Notes under the pieces: generated by a model
Databases searched by the model: none
What the model was told of the DNA's origin: nothing
What the model saw: the letters and a program-made list of their open reading frames with translations, nothing else
Translations under genes and position numbers: made by a program
Shown: positions 10,940 through 12,551 of the stretch, in pieces
Numbering within the stretch: the first letter of the stretch is position 1
Layout of the letters: the number at the start of each line of letters is the position of its first letter
Origin: Clostridia bacterium
Lineage (GTDB): Bacteria; Bacillota; Clostridia; UMGS1883
Length of the DNA: 14,360 bases
Direction of reading: 5' to 3'
Assembly (NCBI GenBank): GCA_017441965.1
Contig: JAFSBF010000204.1
Location: forward strand, 1-14,360

Positions 10940-10969
10940 TTGACATTACCGCTTTAAAAATAGTAAAAT
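10940..10969 (+). promoter_or_regulatory. promoter of hisS-aspS, upstream of the inserted element
   Basis: TTGACA (10940-10945, perfect -35) is followed after 18 bases by TAAAAT (10964-10969). The predicted start is near 10976, so the transcript would run through the entire 273-bp element and give hisS a leader of about 300 nt. Confidence 0.7.
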
Positions 10970-10990
10970 AAAATGAAGTATTGTTATTTA

Positions 10991-11016
10991 GGCATAAGGG
11001 ATCCCAGTCCGATATG
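10991..11016 (+). repeat. left terminal inverted repeat of the MITE-like element
   Basis: Matches the reverse complement of 11238-11263 at 23 of 26 positions, with the outer 11 bases identical. It is preceded by TA at 10989-10990. Confidence 0.85.
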
Positions 11017-11237
11017 GTTTAAAAACAGAAATTTCGTATAATACTGCAGAAAATTCTGCAAATATACGACAGTATTATTCTTGAATTTTCTTTGTCTTAT
11101 AACAAAATTTCTTGTTTTTAAACTCTTCGACCTTAAACGCAGGAAAATTTAATATAATTTTTATGCGAAGGACGAAGATAGGCTGACGCCTTTCGAGGAC
11201 GACAAATAAAAAGAATAAAAATTTAACAAGTTTAAGG

Positions 11238-11263
11238 CATATTGGACTAGGCTCCCTTATGCC
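11238..11263 (-). repeat. right terminal inverted repeat of the MITE-like element
   Basis: Partner of 10991-11016, followed by TA at 11264-11265. Its outer end lies only 4 bases before the hisS ribosome site (AAAGGA, 11268-11273). It contains an ATG (11259-11261) in frame with hisS. Confidence 0.85.
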
Positions 11264-11282
11264 TATGAAAGGATTGATTATT

Positions 11283-12551
11283 GTGGCAATAACTGCACCA
11301 AGAGGAACGGCAGATATACTTGCACCTGATATTCTTAAATGGAAATATATTGAAAGTAAAGTTTCTGATATAAGCGCACGCTTCGGCTACAGTGAAATAC
11401 GTACACCTGTGTTTGAGCACACGGAGCTTTTTGAGCGTGGCGTAGGCGATACAACAGACGTTGTGCAAAAGGAAATGTATACCTTTAACGATAAGGGCGG
11501 AAGAAGTATTACACTTCGCCCCGAGGGAACGGCATCTGTTGCAAGAGCGTTTTTGGAGCATAACATATATGCACAGCCGCTTCCATCTAAGCTTTGCTAT
11601 AATATTACCTGCTACCGCTACGAAAAGCCACAGGCAGGCAGACTTCGTGAGTTTCATCAGTTTGGCGCAGAGTGCTACGGCTCGAGTGAGCCTGTAGTGG
11701 ATGCAGAGGTTATCTCTTTTGCAAAAACCGTTCTTACGGAGCTTGGAATAAAAAAGCTTTCGCTTAATATTAACTCCATCGGTTGTCCTGATTGCAGAAA
11801 GAAATATAACGAGGCACTTAAAGACTATTTCAGACCCTATATAGAGGACGGAACACTGTGCGCAACGTGCCGTGACAGATTTGAGAAAAATCCCCTGCGT
11901 ATACTTGACTGTAAAAGTCCTGTTTGCGGAGAGATTGCAGATAAGGCACCCATTCTTCTTGACTACATCTGCGAAGAATGTCATGACCATTTTGAAAGCG
12001 TTAAGGAGCATCTTGGGGCAATGGGTATCGACTATAATGTTGACGGCACCATTGTAAGAGGACTTGACTACTATACAAAAACCGTATTTGAGTTTAAGAC
12101 AGCACTTGAAGGCACGGCAGGAACGGTGTGCGGTGGCGGAAGATATGATGGACTTATCGAGCAGCTTGGCGGTGCGCCCACGCCCGGAATAGGCTTTGCA
12201 ATGGGTATTGAGAGAATTATTCTCGCCCTCGATGAGGCAGGCGCTATGCCCGAATTTGAAAGCGCACCCGATATATATATTGCAAATATAGGCGATGAAA
12301 CAAAGCTTTTTGTAACAACGCTTACAGATAAGCTTCGCAAGGCGGGAGTTAAGTGCGAGCGTGATTTGTGCGGCAGAAGTCTTAAGGCACAGATGAAATA
12401 TGCAGATAAATGCGGTGCACGCTACAGTATGGTAATAGGCTCAGATGAAGCGGAGAAAAAGAGCGCCATGCTTAAAAATATGAGAGAAAAAGCAGAAACT
12501 GAGGTTAGTCTTGAAAATCTCGAAGACCTTATTGCTAAAGTAAAGGAGTAA
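11283..12551 (+). CDS. hisS: histidyl-tRNA synthetase
   Basis: This class IIa synthetase charges tRNA-His with histidine in the cytoplasm, normally as a dimer. From the GTG at 11283 it has 422 residues, the usual length. Motifs present are APRGT near the N-terminus, TLRPEGT (77-83), motif 2 CYRYEKPQAGRLREFHQFG (110-128), the histidine-binding RGLDYYT (259-265) and motif 3 GIGFAMGIERI (302-312). A C-terminal anticodon-binding domain covers about 325-420. The inserted region carries paired cysteines (CPDC, CATC, CEEC), seen in many Firmicute HisRS. The frame is open to an ATG at 11259, but that codon is inside the terminal repeat of the adjoining element. AAAGGA 9 nt before the GTG and the normal N-terminus M-A-I-T-A-P-R-G-T favour 11283. 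It overlaps functionally with aspS, whose ribosome site is in the last hisS codons. Confidence 0.98.
   Translation: MAITAPRGTADILAPDILKWKYIESKVSDISARFGYSEIRTPVFEHTELFERGVGDTTDVVQKEMYTFNDKGGRSITLRPEGTASVARAFLEHNIYAQPLPSKLCYNITCYRYEKPQAGRLREFHQFGAECYGSSEPVVDAEVISFAKTVLTELGIKKLSLNINSIGCPDCRKKYNEALKDYFRPYIEDGTLCATCRDRFEKNPLRILDCKSPVCGEIADKAPILLDYICEECHDHFESVKEHLGAMGIDYNVDGTIVRGLDYYTKTVFEFKTALEGTAGTVCGGGRYDGLIEQLGGAPTPGIGFAMGIERIILALDEAGAMPEFESAPDIYIANIGDETKLFVTTLTDKLRKAGVKCERDLCGRSLKAQMKYADKCGARYSMVIGSDEAEKKSAMLKNMREKAETEVSLENLEDLIAKVKE

Follow-up and report, generated by a model that had tools for sequence, protein, structure and literature searches.

The window, by which we mean the whole stretch of 14,360 nucleotides that was analysed, contains a gene that we take to be hisS from recognition of its protein. 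The leader of this gene is interrupted by a TA-bounded palindromic element composed of two terminal repeats, two arms and a linker (Table 1). The only open reading frames of at least 80 amino acids that overlap the element are an extended hisS start and an antisense frame entering from hisS.

Table 1 Features of the element and of the hisS leader in the window.
Feature	Position	Strand	Basis or remark
Putative hisS promoter (TTGACA, 18 nt, TAAAAT), upstream of element	10940..10969	+	Aligns with 4 congeneric hisS leaders
Whole element including both TA	10989..11265	+	277 bp; sequence comparison, copies in genomes
Left TA	10989..10990	.	Interpreted as belonging to a duplicated TA target; a single TA lies between abutting elements
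Left terminal repeat, class GGCATAAGG	10991..11016	+	23/26 against right repeat
Arm 1 (P2), 107 nt	11017..11123	-	Read as inverted homologue of arm 2; folds, copy comparison
Linker between arms, 7 nt, TCTTCGA	11124..11130	.	
Arm 2 (P3), 107 nt, with the best conserved core	11131..11237	+	Covariance model, copy alignment
Conserved core of arm 2	11170..11205	+	Invariant alignment columns
Apical hairpin GGC-TGAC-GCC inside arm 2 core	11181-11190		
Right terminal repeat	11238..11263	-	23/26 against left repeat
Right TA	11264..11265	.	
hisS Shine-Dalgarno AAAGGA	11268..11273	+	2 nt past right TA
hisS, GTG start, leader interrupted by element	11283..12551	+	

The preliminary description of this DNA had placed the terminal repeats, their TA flanks and the two closely spaced arms at these coordinates, and all of this was confirmed. 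Once the TA and an inner extension are included, the terminal repeats match at 30 of 35 positions. The two arms differ in GC content (0.23 for arm 1 and 0.33 for arm 2) and in the way they pair. Gapless self-complementarity of arm 2 reaches 28 of 53 positions (shuffle mean 13.9, maximum 24 in 2000 shuffles), while that of arm 1 reaches 27 of 53 (shuffle mean 17.0, maximum 28 in 2000 shuffles) and does not exceed the most extreme shuffle; arm 1 therefore depends on its bulges. Folding of the whole element gave z values of -11.2 for the + strand as RNA, -12.9 for the - strand as RNA and -9.8 for the + strand as DNA, and none of 200 shuffles folded as well in any of these three settings. In the RNA folds, the ends pair over about 26 bp into a terminal stem that meets arm 1 and arm 2 at a junction; small hairpins lie beside these parts. 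Under DNA parameters the arms are rearranged in the best single fold, and the three-part layout appears only in the centroid. The tripartite design proposed earlier is thus supported by the RNA folds, and the layout of terminal stem plus two arms is also kept in distant copies.

Comparison with related genomes indicates that the element is an insertion into the hisS leader. The hisS DNA was searched in eight genomes and matched in six (G005 and G006 gave no hisS match); the upstream region is comparable only in the congeneric G001-G004, as the matches in G025 and G027 begin inside the gene. All four comparable congeners have a hisS leader without the element, and their promoter and Shine-Dalgarno sequences align with those of the window; the element was therefore inserted between the promoter and the ribosome-binding site, at a TA that the empty leaders are too diverged to place exactly. 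The absence from four congeners rules out a native hisS leader. By this account the element would have moved into the leader and, if transcription starts at the upstream promoter, would now form most of the 5' UTR.

A BLAST search of the window's own genome (G000) returned 26 matched pieces that represent 14 distinct places, some of them cut by contig ends or internally deleted. Across 60 genomes, matches were found in 17, a count that includes the own genome and all six congeners, and a scan of genome contigs with a core pattern recovered at least 112 stretches. Among the matches listed, most come from Clostridia and Oscillospiraceae assemblies, many of them from goat, sheep, roe deer or yak gut, and Acetivibrio sp. 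MSJd-27 is also among those listed for the core pattern. From 26 copies a covariance model was built for arm 2; with at most nine candidates scored per genome, it matched 54 of 391 sampled genomes of the class (own genome counted), 30 of 317 genomes of good quality and 33 of 222 genera. The core pattern had no match in viral contigs and BLAST of the element had none in plasmids or phages, and a phage or plasmid element was rejected on these grounds. The copies sit amid flanks that are unrelated to one another. At locus L260 two full copies abut with a single TA common to both, and pairs of end matches overlap by 2 bases in G025 (C23, C50) and in G053 (C7), the last pair being a solo palindrome and a copy (L161) that have one TA in common. 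A TA stands on both sides of every kept copy, TA being a selection criterion, and some other copies are flanked otherwise. The multiple copies, unrelated flanks, TA boundaries, single TA between abutting elements and empty orthologous sites bear out the mobility first suggested for this sequence, and the opposite case named in the preliminary description (a single copy, always before hisS, with no empty site) is contradicted by the copies and the four empty leaders. The element is almost certainly mobile and inserts at TA.

A Shine-Dalgarno sequence with a start codon lies within 8 nt of an end in 21 of 93 copies and in 133 of 2940 control TA sites (odds ratio 6.2), the controls being taken from outside long open frames at the same loci and 9 of 102 copies being excluded for short flanks. 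The element thus settles unusually often directly ahead of ribosome-binding sites. The letters beside the TA favour T on the left (51 of 101) and A on the right (50 of 101), that is, T-TA-A. Of 102 copies, 21 have a gene start within 60 nt on their right and 20 have one on their left; these overall numbers led us to reject an orientation rule before genes, the copies of the own genus in the same list standing at 8 versus 2. The next gene at L171 (G053:C36) seems to take its ribosome-binding site from a left terminal repeat that has remained there (about 300-325).

The scanned stretches gave 115 core matches, of which 70 have paired, TA-bounded ends and 45 were left out, some because they lie at contig edges and some because they are flanked by letters other than TA. 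Among the 70 paired-end copies, 44 measure 275-279 bp and 14 measure 148-163 bp. Most of the latter belong to a short kind of about 156 bp with one arm, and some short copies (such as L203, L219 and L271) look like deletions of the long kind. The arm 2 model matched all five short-kind loci given to it. In 7 of 50 sources it additionally matched the opposite strand of arm 1 (E 1e-8 to 3e-3), in each case beside arm 2 (L040, L220, L278, L084, L247, L041 and L240), and had no match on arm 1 in the other 43, the window among them. A direct comparison of the two arms of the window, with one reversed, gave 45 of 107 identical positions against 32.1 ± 4.5 for shuffles. The apical loop of arm 2 reads CTGACG, and that of arm 1, read outward, is usually similar (CTGTCG in the window). 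From these sequence comparisons we judge that the arms are probably homologous in inverted orientation, and we regard the element as a pair of end modules placed back to back. Within arm 2, 27 of 33 predicted pairs have both sides changed with the pair kept in at least one copy. Solo terminal palindromes of about 50 bp, centred on CATATG and without an armed interior, were also seen in G053 (L160 451-500 and L161 about 372-420).

What is surprising about the element is that its ends vary while still matching each other. In 71 copies, 18 classes of terminal repeat were distinguished. The left and right ends of one copy agree at 18.9 of 22 positions and ends of different copies at 10.4, and over the outer 12 nt of the class representatives the agreement is 10.67 within a copy and 4.51 between classes, figures that are flattered because the copies were picked for paired ends (45 of 115 dropped). 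Among the 18 representatives, repeat positions 2, 4 and 5 are never mismatched, and each of the four Watson-Crick types occurs at both position 4 and position 5 (at position 4, A-T 5, C-G 4, T-A 5 and G-C 4). In five copies of the own genome, aligned with their ends in register with the interior, 23, 22, 21, 15 and 24 of 26 positions are paired. Four copies of the own genome with interiors 94-98% alike have only 14-20 of 26 letters in common at either end. Across all copy pairs whose interiors are alike to 97% or more, the mean likeness of the ends is 90%, and the strong contrast between ends and interior was found in the own genome. The ends therefore change faster than the inside, and largely in step. 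Ends that vary yet match suggest that the mover reads shape more than letters. The part of the repeat around TCGAAC is nevertheless common to many end classes, so some recognition of sequence is likely.

Two side observations concern the repeats. The left and right repeats of L188 differ in class, so that this copy looks like the product of an internal recombination between two copies. The inner repeat of many long copies, read outward, resembles a tRNA T-loop (GTTCGANTC), the window's own repeat being an exception; the motif occurs in 66 of 152 distinct outward ends, and 61 of the 66 have it at one offset. The adjoining T-stem is partial (2.67 of 5 pairs versus 1.36-2.02 when slid), and tRNA-like ends therefore remain a remark and were not upheld as a reading.

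The genomes that bear the element were searched for an enzyme that might move it. An IS630-like transposase had been put forward as the partner, but the corresponding domain, DDE_3 (PF13358), was found in 0 of 12 element-bearing genomes and in 3 of 14 control genomes, and derivation from IS630/Tc1-mariner is not supported on this count. In a further set of 12 such genomes, each with a completeness of 90% or more, TnpB (PF07282) was found in none, reverse transcriptase (PF00078) in four, DDE_Tnp_1 (PF01609) in one and IS110 (PF02371) in two. TnpB was found in 6 of 14 control genomes, and its absence from all 12 leaves an omega-RNA of TnpB unsupported. Y1 (PF01797) was present in just 5 of 11 genomes, in G053 as short pieces only, and was absent from G000, G002, G006, G012, G025 and G031; a REP/RAYT or IS200/IS605 derivation is accordingly not supported. 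None of the six tested protein families is a general partner. A gene-bearing relative with the ends of the element was sought with one end pattern each in G053, G025 and G027, the ends of separate copies being discounted, and inspection by eye of 73 end matches in G053 and 45 in G025 and G027 gave no end pair 1-3 kb apart.

It is usually by their constant ends that small repeats of bacteria are linked to a transposase. Here the inside is conserved across a bacterial class, the ends vary in matched pairs, and the host genomes are mostly without the six transposase or mobility families tested. The element is short, has no mobility gene, has terminal inverted repeats, is multi-copy and has empty orthologous sites, as expected of a MITE, while ends common with an autonomous transposon were not found in G053, G025 and G027. 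We consider it MITE-like, of unusual build. Our preferred reading, to which we assign a probability of roughly 0.6, is that of a non-autonomous, MITE-like DNA element whose ends are read more by their fold than by their sequence and which is moved by a putative trans-acting enzyme. That the ends are read by fold rather than by sequence is, taken alone, a tentative proposal held at slightly less than even odds. The enzyme would use the conserved arm cores to recognise ends folded as a hairpin or cruciform of one strand, and the outer repeat could then take many sequences provided that the two ends pair. Mismatches between the ends may be removed by copying one arm from the other, through template switching in the palindrome, or may be selected against. 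With such an element the question of sequence or shape becomes testable in a widespread case, and the answer would point to an unrecognised mobilising enzyme. A broader proposal, which we regard as unlikely, would make these elements a separate class of small mobile DNA of Clostridia. What sets their ends would be mutual pairing, shape or a guide copied from one end rather than a fixed sequence, and their conserved outward arms would be recognised as a folded single strand of DNA or RNA. The terminal repeat would then be free to change as a pair, and the enzyme would lie outside the families tested.

The most serious competitor, itself rather unlikely, is an ordinary sequence-specific MITE whose ends stem from several autonomous insertion sequences, now lost or unassembled, so that the end classes follow different transposases. 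The constant part of MITEs is usually their ends, whereas here it is the inside. The counts given above for DDE_3, DDE_Tnp_1, IS110 and Y1 and the lack of end pairs 1-3 kb apart also argue against such an origin, although insertion sequences can go missing from draft genomes and the inner motif TCGAAC is common to classes. TA ends, inverted repeats and small size are moreover usual for bacterial MITEs, as far as these are described in the portions of PMC2229807 consulted.

The preferred reading, that of a DNA element with fold-read ends, also has to be weighed against a role as RNA. Among 91 pairs predicted on both strands in 53 copies there were 4320 Watson-Crick, 129 G-T, 108 A-C and 236 other combinations, with 56 G-T and 54 A-C in the terminal stem. 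In the three clusters that have three or more copies, the consensus helices contained 257 Watson-Crick, 1 G-T, 1 A-C and 5 other pairs, 9 ambiguous pairs being left aside. The consensus helices of all 13 clusters, ten of which hold one or two copies each, contained 977 Watson-Crick, 38 G-T, 37 A-C, 91 other and 40 ambiguous pairs, numbers that count against the preferred reading. For comparison, 14 tRNAs of these loci, taken from those with CCA and with TT in the T loop, had 156 Watson-Crick, 12 G-T, 0 A-C and 0 other pairs in their acceptor and T stems. The near absence of G-T in the consensus helices of the three larger clusters speaks for palindromy that is kept at the DNA level. When arm pairs were chosen by a rule treating G-T and A-C alike, arm 2 showed 38 G-T versus 19 A-C on the + strand (28 copies) and arm 1 showed 58 versus 17 on the - strand (38 copies); since related copies are not independent, both pairing counts are indications. 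Read outward, both arms bear a mild resemblance to a folded single strand. Rfam gave no match in the window at the gathering threshold and four matches far below it (E 0.87-9.6, chance level), and a known RNA family at the element was rejected on this basis. The RNA function that the preliminary description had added to mobility therefore keeps the G-T excess on the outward arm strands in its favour and has the Rfam result and the consensus helices, almost without G-T, against it.

It is quite improbable that the element is at heart a mobile structured RNA whose arms function as transcripts, for instance in a leader tuning the next gene. Such a role would agree with the outward-strand excess of G-T, with the conservation of unpaired letters and with the 21 of 93 copies close to a Shine-Dalgarno sequence. 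It fits poorly with the missing Rfam family, the larger-cluster helices, the similar G-T and A-C numbers for pairs predicted on both strands, the use of both orientations before genes and the opposite direction of the two arms. A two-step history, in which solo terminal palindromes came first and an armed interior later entered at their centre, would explain ends that are matched but different and could draw on the solo palindromes of G053 (L160, L161) and on the different extents to which ends and interiors have diverged, but is very improbable given the few solo forms seen by eye among the G053 end matches and the identical layout of kinds without ATAT at the junction.

RUP, ERIC/IRU and Correia/NEMIS are bacterial MITEs with TA ends and units of about 100-200 bp, which the consulted parts of PMC2229807 describe as having neither arms nor a linker. 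Like them, the element is intergenic, is without a mobility gene and has TA ends, terminal inverted repeats and a stem of paired ends; unlike them, it is 277 bp long, has two homologous inverted arms with a linker, and shows matched variation between its two ends. IS630-Spn1 is the proposed partner of RUP according to the same text (PMC2229807), whereas none was found for the element among the six families. The CIR repeats of Caulobacter and Brucella share with the element two long arms joined by a linker and, as portrayed in those parts of PMC2229807, are without the terminal stem of paired ends that the element has together with its arms. On these descriptions, the element combines the paired ends of most bacterial repeats with the two arms and linker of the CIR type. 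The bcr1-bcr3 repeats are likewise MITE-like and interspersed, often in untranslated regions, but are restricted to the Bacillus cereus group with mobility tied to a TTTAT motif, which sets them apart from the element by the descriptions in the portions of PMC6542083 and PMC3446304 consulted rather than by sequence. A literature search, which took a partial view of the papers and is no proof of absence, recognised no published description of the element. The T-shaped terminal repeat of the AAV type, a viral replication terminus, also has a terminal stem and two palindromic arms at a junction, and the likeness to the element is one of shape only.

Several copies contain or adjoin other repeats or an intron domain. 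The copy at L012 contains within arm 2 an insert of roughly 60 bp with small palindromes, likely another repeat. At L139 and L149 the right end of the copy is adjoined by another palindromic repeat of smaller size, whose ends resemble TAAGCATAGAACGCAG and whose inner part has GAACCC/GGGTTC. At L229 a group II intron 3' domain (152-221 on the - strand; RF00029, 44.2 bits against a threshold of 40) directly adjoins a short-kind copy.
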